A stretch of DNA of 43,563 nt from Elusimicrobiota bacterium (GTDB lineage Bacteria; Elusimicrobiota; Elusimicrobia; UBA1565; UBA9628), in contig JACPFR010000049.1 of assembly GCA_016182905.1 (NCBI GenBank), forward strand, positions 1-43,563, given 5' to 3'. Shown in pieces: positions 25,605-39,040 of this stretch; position 1 is the first letter of the stretch; every line of letters begins with the position of its first letter. Made by a program: the position numbers and the translations under genes. The notes beneath the pieces are model-generated. The model was given only the letters and a program-made list of their open reading frames with translations, searched no databases and was not told the DNA's origin.

Positions 25605-25654
25605 GCCGCGCGGTCTCGATCCGAGTAGACTCTGCACATGAGAGACCGCGCGGC
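25605..25654 (+). promoter_or_regulatory. Promoter and start codon enclosed by a 13-bp perfect inverted repeat
   Basis: The arms GCCGCGCGGTCTC (25605-25617) and GAGACCGCGCGGC (25642-25654) are perfect complements separated by 24 bases. The spacer contains the -10 hexamer TAGACT (25626-25631) and the ATG (25638-25640), 6 bases apart. The left arm lies over the -35 position and the right arm is coding. It could be an operator for a dimeric regulator. Confidence 0.5.
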
Positions 25655-27554
25655 TTTGCTGACGGCGCTCCTCGTCCTGGGGCCCTCCGCCGCCCGGGCC
25701 GGCGTCGTCGCCGGCCTGAGGACGCTCCCCGGCGCGCCCGTCCCCGTGCTCACGCTCTCCGCGCCGCTCGTCCGGCCGACGGTCCTGCCCGTCGGATTGA
25801 TGCCGTCGCTCGCCCCGGCCCTCGCCGTCCCGAGCCCGCTGCTCGCCGCGCCCGCGCTCGCGATGCCGGCGGTCCCCGTCGCCGCCGCTCCCGTCCCAGC
25901 GAGCGCCGTCCGCTCGCTGAACGCGATGGGGGAGGCACTCCCCGCGCTCCGGGCGCCCGCGCTCACCGAGATGTCCCTGCGCGTCTCGGCCGGGGCGGCC
26001 TTCGACGGCGCGGCCCCCGTCCCGGGCGCCGTCGACCCGGCGCCTGCCCCCGCGGTCGACGCCTTCGTCCGCGAGCTGCTCGTCGTGCTGATTAAGGCCG
26101 GCGGCGACCCGACGAAGGCCGAAAAAGAACTCATCGACGTCCTCGCCCGGGCCCACGCGGCGGGTCAGCTCGGCCCGGTCCTGCAGGCGCTCGTCGCCGA
26201 CCCGCGCGTGATCCCGCACCTGCCGCCGATGCCGGCGGAGAAGCGCGCGCTGTACGCGGCCCAGTTCGCCTTCATGGTCGGCGCCGAGCTCGAGGGCGCG
26301 GGCCGCATCCCCGGCACCAAGCCCTTCGAGTCCTGGGACGACATGTCCCGGCGCCAGTCGGCCCGGATCTCCGGGAGCGCCTTCGCCCCGCGCGGCCCCG
26401 GCGAGGCGTCCCTGTTCTCGGAGCCCGGTTTCGTGAAGGAGTACGAGGCCCTGACCGGCGCCGCGTTCGCCGGCGGCAACTCGGCCGTGCCGCTCATCGA
26501 CGGCCCCGCCTCCTTCAAGGTCCGCTTCGGCCTGATGCGCAAGGCGAAGAAGAGCATCCACATCCAAAGCTGGGCCTTCTACGACGACGCCACCGGCAAC
26601 GCCGCCGCCGATCTGCTCATCGCGAAGAAGAAGGAAGGCCTCGACGTGAAGATCATGGTCGACGGCAAGACCACCGCCGCCCACGGCGCCGCCGTGCTGG
26701 CGCGCATGGCCGCGGCGGGCATCGAGATCGTGCTCTTCAACGACGCGGCCCGCAAGTACGACGGCCTTCACACGAAGATCCTGCTGGTCGACGGCGTGCA
26801 CGCGATCGTCGGCGGCATGAACTTCGGCGACGACTACTCGCACATGGGCGCCGGCAAGAAGTGGCGCGACACCGACCTGTACTACCGCGGCCGCGTCGTC
26901 GGCCAGACCGCGCGCTTCATGGCCGCCCTGTGGAACGCGCAGGTCGCCGCGCAGGGCCTGCCGCACGGCTTGATGACCCCGCAGGCCGTCCGCCCCGCCT
27001 CCGGCAAGGCGCGAATGTCCTTCCTCGCCGACGACCCCGAGGGCGAGGCGACCATCATGCTCGCCTACCTGAAGGCCATCTCGGGCGCCTCCCGCGTCAT
27101 CAACATCGAGAACGCCTATCTGATCACGATGCCCCAGCTGCGCGAGGCCCTGCTGGGGGCGCTGCGCCGCGGCGTGAAGGTCAACATCCTGACCAACTCC
27201 GCGGAGAGCATCGACGAGCCGATCGTCATCGCCCCCATCCTCGCGAGCCTGCCCGAGTTGACCGCCGCGGGCGCCGCGGTCGGCCTCAAGCGCGGCGACA
27301 CCGTGCACAGCAAGTTCATGACCGTCGACGGCCTGTTCTCCATCGTCGGCTCCTTCAACCTGCACCCGCGCAGCATCCGCTACGAGTTCGAGCTGATCGT
27401 CGGCGCCCTCGACGCGCGCGTCGCGGCCCGCCTCGACGCCGCCTTCGCCGCCGACATGGCCGCCGCCCTGCCCGTGACCGACCCCGCCGCGCTGGCGATC
27501 CCCGATTCCCCCCTGAACCGGATCGTGCGGCGCTACCTGTACAACCAGCTGTAG
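25638..27554 (+). CDS. Exported phospholipase D/cardiolipin synthase-like protein with Ala/Pro-rich leader
   Basis: A 638-residue protein with two HxKxxxxD motifs of the phospholipase D superfamily: 'HTKILLVDGVHAIVGGMNFGDDY' near residue 378 and 'HSKFMTVDGLFSIVGSFNLHPRS' near 556. This is the order and spacing of a two-motif enzyme such as cardiolipin synthase. The N-terminus is a signal peptide (MRDRAALLTALLVLGPSAARA) followed by about 110 Ala/Pro/Val-rich residues and a helical region, not the two membrane helices of standard cardiolipin synthase. The enzyme probably acts in the periplasm or outside, hydrolysing or transferring phosphatidyl groups. The transcript is predicted to be leaderless. 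Confidence 0.88.
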   Translation: MRDRAALLTALLVLGPSAARAGVVAGLRTLPGAPVPVLTLSAPLVRPTVLPVGLMPSLAPALAVPSPLLAAPALAMPAVPVAAAPVPASAVRSLNAMGEALPALRAPALTEMSLRVSAGAAFDGAAPVPGAVDPAPAPAVDAFVRELLVVLIKAGGDPTKAEKELIDVLARAHAAGQLGPVLQALVADPRVIPHLPPMPAEKRALYAAQFAFMVGAELEGAGRIPGTKPFESWDDMSRRQSARISGSAFAPRGPGEASLFSEPGFVKEYEALTGAAFAGGNSAVPLIDGPASFKVRFGLMRKAKKSIHIQSWAFYDDATGNAAADLLIAKKKEGLDVKIMVDGKTTAAHGAAVLARMAAAGIEIVLFNDAARKYDGLHTKILLVDGVHAIVGGMNFGDDYSHMGAGKKWRDTDLYYRGRVVGQTARFMAALWNAQVAAQGLPHGLMTPQAVRPASGKARMSFLADDPEGEATIMLAYLKAISGASRVINIENAYLITMPQLREALLGALRRGVKVNILTNSAESIDEPIVIAPILASLPELTAAGAAVGLKRGDTVHSKFMTVDGLFSIVGSFNLHPRSIRYEFELIVGALDARVAARLDAAFAADMAAALPVTDPAALAIPDSPLNRIVRRYLYNQL

Positions 27555-33287: not shown

Positions 33288-33767
33288 GTGCCCGACTACT
33301 TCCCCCTCGTCAAAGGCGCCGTGCGCGAGTACGCGACGGAGAACTCCTCCGGAGCCGGCACCTACGTCGTCGAGGTCCTCGACGTCGAGACCAAAGGCGG
33401 CGTCACGACCGCCAAGGTCCGCCGCACCGTCAAGCTCCCCAAGGAGCCGGAGGTCGTCGCCGAGGTGACCGTGACCTGCGACGCCGCCGGCGTGCGCGCG
33501 GGGACGGACATCGAGTTCAACGCCCCGGTCAAGGTCGGCACCGAGTGGGTCAGCTCTCCGCGCCGGAACTGGATCGAGTCGCTCGACGCGGCCGTCGAGA
33601 CGCCGGCCGGGAAGTTCACGGGCTGCCTGCGCGTGGCCTACCTCATCGCCGAGGGCGACGGCGGCTCCGGCGAGCGCTTCTACGCGCCGGGCGTGGGGCT
33701 CGTGAAGGTCGTCGACAACGACGAAGGCGAGCCGCTGAGCTTCTCGCTCGTCAAGAAGACGCCCTAG
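33288..33767 (+). CDS. Small beta-rich protein of unknown function
   Basis: A 159-residue protein beginning MPDYFPLVKGAVREYATEN. The 'YFPL..G..x.Y' opening occurs in many uncharacterised beta-sandwich proteins that carry it after a signal peptide. Here no signal peptide is visible from the GTG, and the promoter lies right upstream, so a longer start is unlikely. The rest alternates strands ('TYVVEVLDVETKGGVTTAKVRRTVKL', 'GERFYAPGVGLVKVVDND'). Its stop shares the CTAG tetranucleotide with the stop of the convergent gene. It appears to be regulated through the palindrome upstream. Confidence 0.65.
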   Translation: MPDYFPLVKGAVREYATENSSGAGTYVVEVLDVETKGGVTTAKVRRTVKLPKEPEVVAEVTVTCDAAGVRAGTDIEFNAPVKVGTEWVSSPRRNWIESLDAAVETPAGKFTGCLRVAYLIAEGDGGSGERFYAPGVGLVKVVDNDEGEPLSFSLVKKTP

Positions 33768-36700
33768 GGCTTCGCCGGCTCCTTCGCCGCGCCCGCGGGT
33801 ATGCGCTCCACGAAGGCGTCGAGCGCGTCGCCGATCTCCGTCGCCGCGGCCAGGTACGCGGCCTCGTCGCCGCCGTAGGGGTCGGCGATGTCGCCGCCGC
33901 GCTGGGCGTATTCCGCGAGCGAGAACACCTTGCCCTTGGCCTCGGGATGGCGGGCGAGAACCGCCTGCGCCTGCGCGGCGGTCATGGTGAGGATGAGGTT
34001 GGTCCCGGCGACGTCGGCGGCGGTCAGCGTCTGGGCGCGGTGGCCGGAGGCGTCCACGCCTTGCGCTTCGAGCGTGGCCTGCGCCTTGGCGTTCATGCCC
34101 TCGCCGGCCGCGGCGACCGAGAGGCCGCGGGAGACGACCTCGATGTCGGGGCGCCCGCGGCGGGAGAGCTTCTCGCGCGCCAGGTGCGCGGCCATCGGCG
34201 AGCGGCAGGTGTTGCCGGTGCAGACGAACATCAGGCGCTTGGGCTTGGGCGCCTGCGCCGGCTTCATCTCCGAGCCCTGCGGCGGCGCGGGCACGGGCGC
34301 CTGCTTCTCCGCGCCGTTGCTCGTCACCGAGCGCGACTGCAGGATGTAGAGCCTGTTGTCCTCGTCGAAGCCGAACTCGATGTCGAGGGCGTAGCCGAAG
34401 TGGCGCTCGAGCGCCACCGACACGTCGGAGAGCAGCTTGAGCTTCTCCGGAGTCATCGAGCGGCGGCGGCGCCACTCGGGGGGCATCTTCTCCTCGGCGG
34501 TGCCCTTGCCGGTCTTGCCGCGCACGACCGCGAGCTTCTTGTCGGCGACCATCGGGGGCAGGATCTCGAGGCCGGTCTTCTTGGAGAGAACGTACTGGTC
34601 GGGCGCCACGCGGCCGGAGACGACGCCCTCGCCCAGGCCGAAGGCGCCGTTGACGATGACGCGCCCCGAGCTGCCGGAGACCGGGTCCTGCGTGAAGGCC
34701 ACGCCGGAGACGACGGAGTCGACCATCGCCTGGACGACGACCGCCTGGGCGAGGTTGGCCGTCGACAGCCCGCGCGTCTCGCGGTAGAGCAGGGCGCGGG
34801 GGTTCCACAGGGAGGCCCACACGTCCTTGACGTGCTCGAGCAGCTCGGCGGGATCGACGTAGAGGTGCGTGTCGCCGGCGCCGGCGAAGGCGGCCTCGGC
34901 GCCGTCCTCGTCGACGGCCGAGGAGCGCACGGCGAGGAAGACCTTGCCCAGGCGCTGGGCGGCGAGGCCCTCGAGGATCTCCTTGCCCACGCCGGACTGG
35001 GCGGAGAGCGACGCGCCGAGGATGAGCCTGCGCGCCCGCTCCGAGCGCTGCTCGGGCGTCAGGCGCGCGTCGGAGCCCAGGGCCTCGAGGCGCTCGGCGA
35101 TGCCGGATTCCTTTAGGAAGCGGCGGTAGGCGTGGACGGTGAGCGCGATGCCGGGCGGGACCTCGCCGCCGGCGGCGCGCACGACGGAGGCGATCTCGCC
35201 GAGCTTGGCCGCCTTGCCGCCGACCCAGGGCACGTCGACGTCGAGGATGGCGGCCAGCGGAAGCACGGCGGGAGCGGAGGACTCCATGTCGGCGCGGCGC
35301 GAGGCCTCCAGGCGCCTGGCCTGGTCCTCCCATTTGCGGATCATGTCGGGGCTCATGCCGCGGCGGCGGGCCTTGGCGATGGCGGACTTGATGCGCGGCA
35401 GGGCCTCGACGGTGGCGGCCGGGAACAGGCGCGCGTGGGTCTGCAGCTCGCTCATCTCCTCGGCGAGCAGGCGCTCGTGGCGCTCCTTGGCCTCCCCCTT
35501 CAACCCGGCGAGCGCGATCTCGTGGGCGGCGAGCTCGGACTTCGGGCGGCCGAGCTCGACGGCGACGGCGCGCAGGCCGCGCGCGCGGGCCTCGGCCTCG
35601 CGCCAGACGCGCTCGACGGACTCGGTGGACAGCGACTCGGCGACGATCTCGCGGCGCTCCTTGAGGTCCGCGCCGGCGTCGGCGAGCTCGGCGGAGAAGC
35701 GCGCCTCGAGCGTGGCCTGCGCGAGCCTGCCGACGACGTCCTCCGGGCCGGGGATGACGGACAGCGCGTGGGCCAGCGCCTTGACCGCGCGCGGGTCGAC
35801 GAGCGCGCGGGAGAACAGGCCGGAGAGGACCTCGCGGATCAGGACCGCCTTCTGCTCGTGCTGCAGGGCCTGCGCGGCCTGGCGGTGGCGCAGCCACTGC
35901 GCCAGCGGAGCGGAGTCCCCCGAGGCGTCGAAGCGCTCGAGGACGCCGGCGGCGTCGAGCAGGGCGGCGCTGGCCCCCGGCGGGAACACCTCGACGACGC
36001 CGGTCGCGGGGTCCAGGCGCACCACCTCGCCCTCGAGCAGGGCGACGGCGGGCGCGGGCCTGGCCGGACGGGCGATCAGCTCGCCGGCGCGGACCGGGGC
36101 GCCGAGGTCGAAGGTGCTCAAGGACGCCGCGCCGTCCTTCCAATCGACGCCGGGCAGGATCGCGGCCGGTATGCCCATCTCGCGCGTCGTGATCGCGGCG
36201 TGGCTGAGCAGGCCGCCCGAGGTCGTGATCACCGCCTTCGAGGCGCGGATCGCGTCGAGGTCGTCGGGCGTGGTGTAGGGGGCCACGAAGATGAAGCCGC
36301 CCGCGGCCGCCTTCGCCTTGTCGTAGGTCACGCGCGCGAGCAAGGTCCGCCCGTGACCCGGGCTCGCCGCCATGCCCTGGAAGCTGCGTCCGAAGGTCGA
36401 GCGCGAAGGCGCCGGCGCGCGCAGCAGCCGCAGGAAATGACCGGTGCCGGGAGGGCTGTCGGAAGGCTTGAACTTCGCGACGGGATGGCCCTGGGCCCGG
36501 AGCGCGTCGAACAGGGCGTCGGGCGTGACGCCGCGCGGCCGCTCTCCCGGCTCGAGCGTGTGCACCTCGGCGCGCGCCAGGCCGATCTGGCCGCCCTTCG
36601 GGTCGCGCAGGGCGTACACCGTCACCCAGCCGTTCGGGTCGAGGCGGCGCTGGGCCCGCTCGACCGTCAGCGCGCCGAGCGAGCCGATCGTCTCGTATTG

Positions 36701-39040
36701 AAACAGCGACGGGTCGAGCGAGGAGACGACCTCCGCCATGCGCGCCCCGGCGACGCCGCCGGCGTCGAAATCGTCGGCGAGCCGGCCGAGGGGGTCGTAC
36801 CCGGAGTTGCGCACGAGGCGCCCGTCGACGCCCAGGCGCAGCTGTCCCCGGGCGATGGCGGCCTCGATGGGCTCGTTGACGAAGCGGTCGATCGTGCGCT
36901 GGCCGAGGCGCTCCTCGGCGGGTATGGCCGGCAGCCCCAGGGCCGCGAGGTTCTTGTCGAGCGCGGCGCGCAGGATCGCGCGCGGGCGCTTCTCGGTCTC
37001 GTACTTCTTCCAGCCCTCGACCATCGCGTTGTGGTCGTCGTGCACGTAGAACGGCAGGGTCCCTTCGCCGAGCACCGTGTCCACCCAGTCGTCGATGCGC
37101 GCGCCGACCTCCTCGCTCGTCTTGGCGCCCTGCACGAGCATCGGCAGGGCGAAGTCCACGCCGACCGTCGCGTGCAGGGCCTGCACGACGAGGGCGAAGG
37201 TGTCGGTCATCTCGTCGACGGTCTGCGAGGCGTGGTCCTTGTCGATCACCGCGGTCAGGAAGCCGTTCTTCTGGTCGACATGGAAGCCGGCTTTATGAAG
37301 CAGCCTCCCGACGTAATAGAGCCGGGTCTGGTTGTCGTAGCCGGTGCCCCACTCCTGGTAGCGCACGCGGATCATGCCGCCCTCGTCGGGCTGCAGGAAG
37401 CTCGCGTAGATCTCGGCGGAGTGCGCGCCGAGCTTGAAGTGGCCCCAGAACTGGTGGTCCTGCATGATCAGCGAGCCCTTCGGCGTGTCCTTGGAGCGCG
37501 TCATCGCCGCGAGCAGGGCCTTGAAGCCGGGCGAGACGACGCGGCCGTCCTTGACCAGCGGGTGCTCGGAGAGGTCGACGAGGGAGACGGACTTCTCGTC
37601 GGCCCACGAGCCCAGGCGCACGGTCAGGTTCGCCGGCGAGGCGGTGTTGGACTTGCCGACGGCCTCGAGCGCCTGCTGGTGGAGGTAGTTGAGGTACTTG
37701 TGCAGCGCGCGCTTGTCGATCGGCATCACCAGCGCGACCGCGGCGGGCGGCAGGAGGTCGGAATCGGAGAGGCCGCGCACCGCCGCCTCGATCTGGGCGC
37801 CGAGGCGCCGGACCTCGAGCTTGACGCCGAGGGCGTCCGCGGCGCGCGCGTCGTCGCCCTCGCCGAGCGCCGCGTAGGCCTCGGCCATCGCCGTCACGTG
37901 CGCGTGCACCGCGCGCGCGGTCTTGACCGTCATCTTCGACGAGCTCTGCGCGATCAGCTCGAGCGCGGCGAAGTTCGCCTCGATGAGGGAGTTGAAGCTC
38001 GCGAAGCGCGCGCGCAGGGCCTTGGTCTCCTCCGCGTCCTGCCCGCGCTCGAGGCGGACGCTGACCGCCTCGTCGGCGGACTTCGTCACCGTCAGCCCCG
38101 CGGCGGCGGGCGGGGCGTACAGCATCCGGTAGCCGAGGGCCTCGAAGCGCGCGCCGCGCCCGGTGCGGACGAGGAGCTTGTCGCCGGGCAAGGTCTTGAG
38201 CCAGGGCGCCGTCTTCGGCGGCAGGACCGTGAGCGTAGCCGCCTCGGGCTCCGGCTCGCTCTTGACGAACGCCGACTTGACGTCCCCCCACGCCTCGGAC
38301 GCCGCCTCGGCGACCGAGCCCCAGGCGCCTTTGAGCCAGTTCTTCGCCGTCCCGCCTTTCGGAGCGGGCGGCGCCATCTTGAAGGCGGCCTTCGCCGCGC
38401 CCTTTTCCGCCGGAGCCAGGCCCGAGGGCTTCCCCGAGGCCGCGGGAGCGGCCGCGGCGAGCATCCCGGCCGCCTCGCCGCCGGCCTCGTCCTCGGCGCC
38501 GTCGTAGAGTCTCTTGAGGTCGGCGGCCGACGCCTTCGCCCCGCCGACGAGCTTCCCCTCGAGCTCGCCGGCCGACGCGGGAGAGTGGGCGGGGGAGTCG
38601 ATCGCCGGCGGCAGGGGCTTGGCGACGAACGTCTTCATCGGGGTCGCGGCCTTGGCGGGCGCCGCCTGCGGCGCGAGCGAGGCGGCGGGGTCGTCGGGGT
38701 CGGCCCACGACGCCGGCTTGGACGGGTCGTGGCCGATATAACCCGCCGGAGGATTGAGCTCGCTCGGCTTGGCCGCCGCGGCCGCGGGCGCGGCCAACGG
38801 CGCGGCCAGAGGCGCGGGCGCCGCGGCGCCGAGCGTGGGCGCGAGGCCGAGGCCCAAGGCCGGCACGGCCGACACGCCGCCGGGGCCCGCCGCGGGGCCG
38901 CCGACGGTGCCGGCCTGGCCGCCTTGGCCCGTGCCGGTATTGCCCGATTTGGGCAGATTGACGTCCACCGCGAGCGCGGGACGCGCCAGCAGGGCGGATA
39001 AGAGGAAGGCCAGGGCTCCCCGGAGGGGTTTCGGGGCCAT
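33764..39040 (-). CDS. Giant leader-bearing phosphohistidine/ATP-grasp dikinase-like protein fused to a low-molecular-weight tyrosine phosphatase
   Basis: A 1758-residue protein. It has a signal peptide (MAPKPLRGALAFLLSALLARPALA), ~200 Ala/Pro/Gly-rich residues, and an unrecognised region (~230-890). A PEP-utiliser swivel domain follows with the phosphohistidine in 'GGLLSHAAITTREMGIP' (~945), then a charged helical linker. A PPDK/PEP-synthase-type ATP-grasp domain spans ~1262-1590 ('VGGKAAKLGEIA', 'RSSAVDEDGAEAAFAGAGDT', 'FTQDPVSG', 'GLGEGVVSG', 'LYILQSRSV'). At the C-terminus is a phosphatase with the P-loop 'VCTGNTCRSPMAAHLA' (~1605) and 'DPYGGDEAAY'. The PEP-binding barrel is missing, and the order His-then-ATP-grasp resembles glucan water dikinases. 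It likely phosphorylates an unknown acceptor. Its promoter is TACACT-N6-ATG. Confidence 0.85.
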   Translation of the reverse strand: MAPKPLRGALAFLLSALLARPALAVDVNLPKSGNTGTGQGGQAGTVGGPAAGPGGVSAVPALGLGLAPTLGAAAPAPLAAPLAAPAAAAAKPSELNPPAGYIGHDPSKPASWADPDDPAASLAPQAAPAKAATPMKTFVAKPLPPAIDSPAHSPASAGELEGKLVGGAKASAADLKRLYDGAEDEAGGEAAGMLAAAAPAASGKPSGLAPAEKGAAKAAFKMAPPAPKGGTAKNWLKGAWGSVAEAASEAWGDVKSAFVKSEPEPEAATLTVLPPKTAPWLKTLPGDKLLVRTGRGARFEALGYRMLYAPPAAAGLTVTKSADEAVSVRLERGQDAEETKALRARFASFNSLIEANFAALELIAQSSSKMTVKTARAVHAHVTAMAEAYAALGEGDDARAADALGVKLEVRRLGAQIEAAVRGLSDSDLLPPAAVALVMPIDKRALHKYLNYLHQQALEAVGKSNTASPANLTVRLGSWADEKSVSLVDLSEHPLVKDGRVVSPGFKALLAAMTRSKDTPKGSLIMQDHQFWGHFKLGAHSAEIYASFLQPDEGGMIRVRYQEWGTGYDNQTRLYYVGRLLHKAGFHVDQKNGFLTAVIDKDHASQTVDEMTDTFALVVQALHATVGVDFALPMLVQGAKTSEEVGARIDDWVDTVLGEGTLPFYVHDDHNAMVEGWKKYETEKRPRAILRAALDKNLAALGLPAIPAEERLGQRTIDRFVNEPIEAAIARGQLRLGVDGRLVRNSGYDPLGRLADDFDAGGVAGARMAEVVSSLDPSLFQYETIGSLGALTVERAQRRLDPNGWVTVYALRDPKGGQIGLARAEVHTLEPGERPRGVTPDALFDALRAQGHPVAKFKPSDSPPGTGHFLRLLRAPAPSRSTFGRSFQGMAASPGHGRTLLARVTYDKAKAAAGGFIFVAPYTTPDDLDAIRASKAVITTSGGLLSHAAITTREMGIPAAILPGVDWKDGAASLSTFDLGAPVRAGELIARPARPAPAVALLEGEVVRLDPATGVVEVFPPGASAALLDAAGVLERFDASGDSAPLAQWLRHRQAAQALQHEQKAVLIREVLSGLFSRALVDPRAVKALAHALSVIPGPEDVVGRLAQATLEARFSAELADAGADLKERREIVAESLSTESVERVWREAEARARGLRAVAVELGRPKSELAAHEIALAGLKGEAKERHERLLAEEMSELQTHARLFPAATVEALPRIKSAIAKARRRGMSPDMIRKWEDQARRLEASRRADMESSAPAVLPLAAILDVDVPWVGGKAAKLGEIASVVRAAGGEVPPGIALTVHAYRRFLKESGIAERLEALGSDARLTPEQRSERARRLILGASLSAQSGVGKEILEGLAAQRLGKVFLAVRSSAVDEDGAEAAFAGAGDTHLYVDPAELLEHVKDVWASLWNPRALLYRETRGLSTANLAQAVVVQAMVDSVVSGVAFTQDPVSGSSGRVIVNGAFGLGEGVVSGRVAPDQYVLSKKTGLEILPPMVADKKLAVVRGKTGKGTAEEKMPPEWRRRRSMTPEKLKLLSDVSVALERHFGYALDIEFGFDEDNRLYILQSRSVTSNGAEKQAPVPAPPQGSEMKPAQAPKPKRLMFVCTGNTCRSPMAAHLAREKLSRRGRPDIEVVSRGLSVAAAGEGMNAKAQATLEAQGVDASGHRAQTLTAADVAGTNLILTMTAAQAQAVLARHPEAKGKVFSLAEYAQRGGDIADPYGGDEAAYLAAATEIGDALDAFVERIPAGAAKEPAKP

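Follow-up and report, generated by a model that had tools for sequence, protein, structure and literature searches.

A predicted exported dikinase with a phosphatase domain in the same chain in an Elusimicrobiota bacterium

In plant glucan water dikinases (GWD) a substrate-binding part is followed by a phosphohistidine domain and a C-terminal ATP domain, and the phosphatase YwlE is a stand-alone cytoplasmic enzyme. Precedents for the dikinase mechanism are RPH (PMC4844700), HpeHI (PMC12167813) and the autophosphorylation of VadK (PMC13400623), and among low-molecular-weight protein tyrosine phosphatases (LMW-PTPs) a Thr at position PX5 has been shown to favour phosphoarginine in YwlE of B. subtilis and PtpB of S. 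aureus, whereas phosphotyrosine enzymes have Ile (PMC8001253). Here we analyse a 43,563-nucleotide stretch of an Elusimicrobiota bacterium (contig JACPFR010000049.1, assembly GCA_016182905.1; the whole stretch is called the window), in which a complete gene of 1758 codons on the (-) strand (33764..39040) carries domains of both kinds of enzyme. These catalytic parts are already known; we found their combination in one chain described nowhere.

The explanation that we favour, with somewhat better than even confidence, is that the gene product is exported and works as an AMP-forming dikinase that carries a phosphatase in cis, the phosphate of His947 going to an acceptor on an N-terminal domain (N). 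The ATP-grasp domain (K) would cleave ATP and phosphorylate the swivel domain (H) on His947; the expected first step is ATP -> His-P + AMP + Pi. The swivel domain would then turn to N, which would stand where other dikinases have a pyruvate barrel or a rifampin-binding domain, and the phosphate would move from His947 to the acceptor held there. Finally, the C-terminal YwlE-type domain would dephosphorylate the product, or else the module itself, making the system reversible or resetting it. The original prediction on this DNA had likewise named no particular acceptor.

Domain layout and catalytic residues

The open reading frame (ORF) begins with ATG, has a single terminal stop and translates to 1758 residues. 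Orthologs were taken from a contig scan sensitive to close relatives only, all matches of which were in Elusimicrobiota, and their loci had 81-90% DNA identity to the window gene. Three of them (L007, L008 and L009), from metagenome-assembled genomes of other species, were each one uninterrupted ORF of 1742-1758 codons, and a fourth (L010) was cut off by the end of its contig. Since the single-ORF state is found in three other species, the chain is not made of two or three genes joined by sequence errors or by a frameshift, an explanation that we ruled out, and the single protein proposed originally holds.

Three Pfam models matched the protein well above their cut-offs: PEP-utilizers (PF00391) at residues 915-960 (48 bits vs 23), PPDK_N (PF01326) at residues 1272-1583 (256 bits vs 27) and LMWPc (PF01451) at residues 1604-1743 (90 bits vs 23). 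The swivel match precedes the ATP-grasp match, and none of the PEP/pyruvate-barrel models of Pfam had a match in the 1758 residues, in agreement with the order of His before ATP-grasp and the absence of the PEP barrel that had been read from the sequence; no glucan-binding domain (CBM45 or CBM20) was matched in Pfam either. NCBIfam gave only partial matches to PEPS, RPH and PigC models, all far under cut-off (289 bits vs 598 for the PEPS models, through shared domains only; 210 bits vs 999 for NF041857, the RPH model). Among solved structures, the kinase core came closest to PEPS and the C-terminal domain to YwlE.

All parts of the gene are given on the (-) strand. The swivel phosphohistidine domain (residues 886-1000, 36041..36385) aligned to the central domains of PEPS and PPDK, and its catalytic His947 (codon 36200..36202), in T939-T-S-G-G-L-L-S-H, was assigned by the T/SXXGGXXXH pattern (PMC12167813) and by alignment to the PEPS His. 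A helical linker (residues 1001-1256, 35273..36040) follows, for which the predicted model had a pLDDT mostly of 60-88, the rest of the model being poor. The ATP-grasp domain (residues 1257-1590, 34271..35272) was aligned to 8a8e, 9goj and 2ols and has the ATP-site residues Lys1276, Arg1372, Thr1391 and Gln1568, which are retained in active relatives. Last comes the LMW-PTP-fold domain (residues 1600-1748, 33797..34243), with the P-loop Cys1607-TGN-Thr1611-C-Arg1613 and the acid Asp1720.

His947, the four ATP-site residues, Cys1607, Arg1613 and Asp1720 were common to all four full-length copies, in agreement with the claim that the key residues are intact, and catalytic activity of the window protein is suggested by them. 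Values of dN/dS of about 0.12-0.39 in N, in the swivel and ATP-grasp domains, in the helical linker and in the phosphatase point to purifying selection on all folded domains; estimates for the signal-peptide region (25 codons) were too noisy for use.

The best-conserved part of the protein is N itself, about 600 residues ahead of the swivel domain (residues 285-885, 36386..38188), which defines the family and had been overlooked in the earlier description of the domains, although the domains named there stand. No relatives of this region were found in Pfam, even at E = 1, and none that was credible in PDB sequences, either with the window sequence or with a 12-member diverse profile (best E 0.056). 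Searches of plasmids, of viral contigs and of the phylum's own RPH-like and PEPS proteins gave no match to N either. Its core (residues 520-670, IMQDHQFWGHFKLGAHSAEIYASFLQPDEGGMIRVRY ... DKDHA, 37031..37483) has 92-100% invariant columns and a dN/dS of 0.03-0.07, and contains His, Asp and Arg positions common to distant members. In homologs N is followed by the swivel domain, and it appears to be the only candidate for the second-substrate domain, so that the acceptor may bind to it.

Export and the ATP question

A Sec signal peptide was predicted in residues 1-24, MAPKPLRGALAFLLSALLARPALA (38969..39040), by an n/h/c-region heuristic and hydropathy, and was kept in the orthologs. With VDV after the cleavage point, the N-terminus fits a cleavable Sec/SPase I signal of the AxA type according to our own heuristic, and it is the only hydrophobic, membrane-spanning (TM)-like segment in the protein. 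Only two Cys are found among the 1758 residues, both in the phosphatase P-loop and both in all four copies, as would be expected of an exported protein that must retain its Cys nucleophile; BamA and an exported phospholipase D-like protein encoded in the same window have none.

Two types of relatives point the same way. In the sister genera G085 and G165, where N and H-K are encoded by adjoining genes, signal-like N-termini were seen by eye on the N gene and on the H-K gene, and the presence of signals on both halves supports export. The giant relatives of G127, G011 and G020 have similar N-terminal signals, and the TM-like segments ahead of their modules are even in number or absent, compatible with a location on the same side of the membrane. 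From these features we infer that the protein is exported across the inner membrane; the extracytoplasmic site that the original prediction had held possible is thus probable, given the predicted signal peptide.

ATP would be at hand if the protein were instead a cytoplasmic or inner-membrane-facing enzyme, with its N-terminus serving as an anchor or remaining unused, that phosphorylated a cytoplasmic small molecule as RPH and HpeHI do. The known relatives of the mechanism are indeed cytoplasmic small-molecule dikinases (PMC4844700, PMC12167813), and cytosolic-type domains such as RecJ are in the same frame as some giant relatives. Nevertheless, the AxA-type signal conserved in the orthologs, the signal-like N-termini of both split relatives, the depletion of Cys and the lack of a stop-transfer segment make this explanation rather unlikely.

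Between the signal peptide and N lies a variable linker rich in Ala, Pro and Gly (residues 25-284, 38189..38968), of low conservation, with gaps and a dN/dS of 0.45-0.68, which corresponds to the Ala/Pro tract noted before. Elsewhere in the window, at 25638-27554 (+), a signal peptide and an Ala/Pro tract precede a two-domain phospholipase D-like part without cysteines; such a leader-plus-tract design may be common in the lineage of the window.

The genes around the dikinase-phosphatase gene are coaD, metH, a carboxypeptidase gene and genes for small proteins, with coaD divergent and a DUF3108-like gene convergent downstream. At L009, two large genes (by eye, glyoxylate-cycle enzymes) are between coaD and the dikinase-phosphatase gene, and the orthologs at L007 and L008 each have two genes downstream. 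As the flanking genes differ between these loci and the window, the context is not informative, and a function derived from operon neighbours was dropped. Inspection of the neighbour genes identified no secretion-system gene or effector signal beside the gene. This bears on an effector-like enzyme that would work in another cell, host or prey, and modify proteins or metabolites there. Such an enzyme would find ATP in its target cell, which would solve the ATP problem, and giant proteins of related phyla have been proposed for predation or symbiosis (PMC10066038, PMC12057145); with neighbours of the kind found here, we consider it improbable.

The phosphatase domain and its pairing with the kinase core

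The C-terminal domain has the CX5R P-loop and the DP acid loop of the LMW-PTP superfamily (Cys1607, Arg1613 and Asp1720-Pro). Its P-loop reads C-T-G-N-T-C-R, with Thr1611 at PX5 in all four orthologs, and its best PDB match was YwlE (4pic). Tyrosine specificity as a default was therefore rejected: of the LMW-PTP tyrosine phosphatase proposed originally, the P-loop and the fold were confirmed, whereas the label "tyrosine" is probably wrong in specificity, and the domain is better named YwlE-like, of the phosphoarginine type.

The domain is a C-terminal single copy in the window protein and its three full-length orthologs, lies between H and K in G125, and is present as diverged copies ahead of N in two giants, one of G078 and one of G011. 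G127, of the same genus, has N-H-K followed by five tandem C-terminal LMW-PTP domains (L051:4630-14088, C28), and a second N-H-K gene, of 2104 codons, adjoins this five-phosphatase gene. This recurrence at different positions around N-H-K points to a functional link, and the phosphatase may act on the product of the kinase.

A narrower role, in which the phosphatase serves the kinase core only, as a brake on the swivel domain or on an autophosphorylation site, and the phosphate of the acceptor is removed elsewhere or never, would also agree with a phosphatase that is held in cis and whose place relative to H and K varies. In the alignment Leu945 of the window protein replaces the regulatory Thr that PEPS has two residues ahead of the catalytic His, so that control by the classical PEPS/PPDK regulatory protein is unlikely, and this would leave room for such a brake. 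YwlE, however, acts on phosphoarginine, and we regard the brake as a minority possibility.

The preferred dikinase with an acceptor on N could take a more specific form, an exported writer-eraser that would act outside the cytoplasm, passing the phosphate of His947 to guanidino groups (Arg of proteins or of peptides) and removing it with the YwlE-type domain. We consider this a long shot; if true, both anhydride bonds of ATP would drive the formation of a high-energy phosphoramidate, and there would be a second route to phosphoarginine, independent of McsB. The source genome also encodes a McsA-like and McsB pair (L065, C25:76386), indicating that a canonical protein-arginine kinase is present. 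The McsB call relies on the strength of its match (E 1e-55), because the family search was positive in none of 14 control genomes, B. subtilis possibly among them. Separate LMW-PTPs are found in the same genome as well, one Thr-type (L067), one Ile-type (L069) and one arsenate-reductase-like (L068). In two Elusimicrobiota genomes (L070:1359-2657 (-) and L071) a Thr-type LMW-PTP is fused to what by eye is an RsmI-type 16S rRNA methyltransferase.

The N-H-K family and comparison with known systems

The same domain order is present elsewhere, as had been proposed for checking: when the phylum was searched, 43 of 295 Elusimicrobiota genomes had N, and the N-H-K order recurs in other Elusimicrobiota families. 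In the members examined the swivel domain comes directly after N, and in the active group ATP-grasp comes next (the N-H-K module). The His motif of N-H-K members is GG(L/I/V)LSHA(A/G)ITTRE and the ATP-site residues are kept, a pattern that the window protein fits. A tree of K domains set the family as a whole apart from those of PEPS-like and RPH-like type in the phylum with a support of 99/96, and no published description of the module was found in the open-access literature.

Elusimicrobiota and Omnitrophota are enriched in giant proteins (PMC11573180), and the module often occurs in giant open frames, of 12,027 (G078), 10,270 (G125) and 6,078 (G061) codons among others; frames of family f10 have about 2,000-8,000 codons, and several giants of this family have two modules. 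The G078 giant (L045/L046/L072, C12) contains N-H-K, lipase, HEAT and glycosyltransferase domains, and that of G125 (L047/L048/L073, C1) contains M20 peptidase, RecJ, N-H-T-K and cation-efflux domains. The window protein, compact and with a single module, belongs to a family whose other members lie mostly within giant proteins. Because the same module recurs in these, its gene offers a tractable single-module protein of 1758 residues with which to probe what giant Elusimicrobiota proteins do.

The G125 and G078 frames string enzymes together in a polyprotein-like way. Giants at L046, L053, L054, L064, L056 and L073 share an N-terminal domain after the signal peptide, with a motif that is roughly (V/I)INIQDLHCxxExQxxI...VxxEGAxG, and for this domain no credible Pfam match was obtained.

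In other relatives the kinase core has degenerated. Split or shortened versions of the sister genera (those named above, as well as G099 and G113, in which an H-K gene was seen) have Pro or Arg in place of the swivel His and have lost the ATP-site motifs GGK, VRSS and LQxR. The joint loss of the His and of the ATP site in the same lineage suggests that H and K work together. In the K-domain tree these relatives adjoin the window protein on long branches. As they keep the fold without these residues, the window protein could itself be a phosphate-binding structural scaffold, its catalysis lost or irrelevant; this is improbable, however, with every known catalytic residue of the three enzyme domains invariant in the window group and the only two cysteines of the protein forming the P-loop pair.

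Exported-looking split N and H-K genes, or lone H-K genes, were noted at L112, L060, L061 and L062, where apparent pseudoenzymes, devoid of the catalytic His as well as of the ATP site, are still maintained. The source genome encodes a second exported-looking protein (L059:2031-4757 (-), C10), with an intact ATP-grasp domain, no N domain and a weak swivel-like match (SALSHMVMLSR) ahead of ATP-grasp.

Several observations weigh against an exported dikinase that transfers phosphate to an acceptor on N and pairs with an active phosphatase. ATP is not expected outside the cytoplasm, which raises the question of the source of ATP for such an enzyme. AlphaFold, with alignments of four near-identical sequences, gave mean pLDDT values of 47 and 49, and because the predicted models are poor an acceptor site in N is deduced just from the position of the domain. 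Not every member of the N-H-K family has a phosphatase fused to it. Moreover, all five tandem domains of G127 keep the Cys and Arg of CX5R, but their aligned general-acid Asp is changed, and with this loss they may bind rather than hydrolyse.

Among the known systems, plant GWD has a domain order like that of the window protein, which differs in having no glucan-binding Pfam domain and a swivel domain that matches PF00391. With PEPS and PPDK it shares ATP-grasp and swivel His domains that align, with the key residues matched; unlike them it has the His before ATP-grasp, N instead of a PEP/pyruvate barrel, Leu945 and a predicted signal peptide. The RPH/HpeHI type is alike in that ATP-grasp and a swivel His are accompanied by another kind of second-substrate domain, and Lys22, Arg117 and Thr136 of RPH (PMC4844700) correspond to Lys1276, Arg1372 and Thr1391, as read through PEPS alignments. 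The Arg-to-Thr spacing is 19 in both proteins, but the order in RPH is ATP-grasp, substrate domain and His, whereas the window protein has the His first and looks exported. With YwlE and PtpB the C-terminal domain shares the fold family, the DPYGG acid loop and a CX4CR(S/T) P-loop in which PX5 is Thr, and it differs from them in being fused to a dikinase and predicted to be exported. As for the giant proteins of Elusimicrobiota and Omnitrophota, relatives of the module are in Elusimicrobiota frames of up to 12,027 codons, whereas the window protein has one module in 1758 residues.

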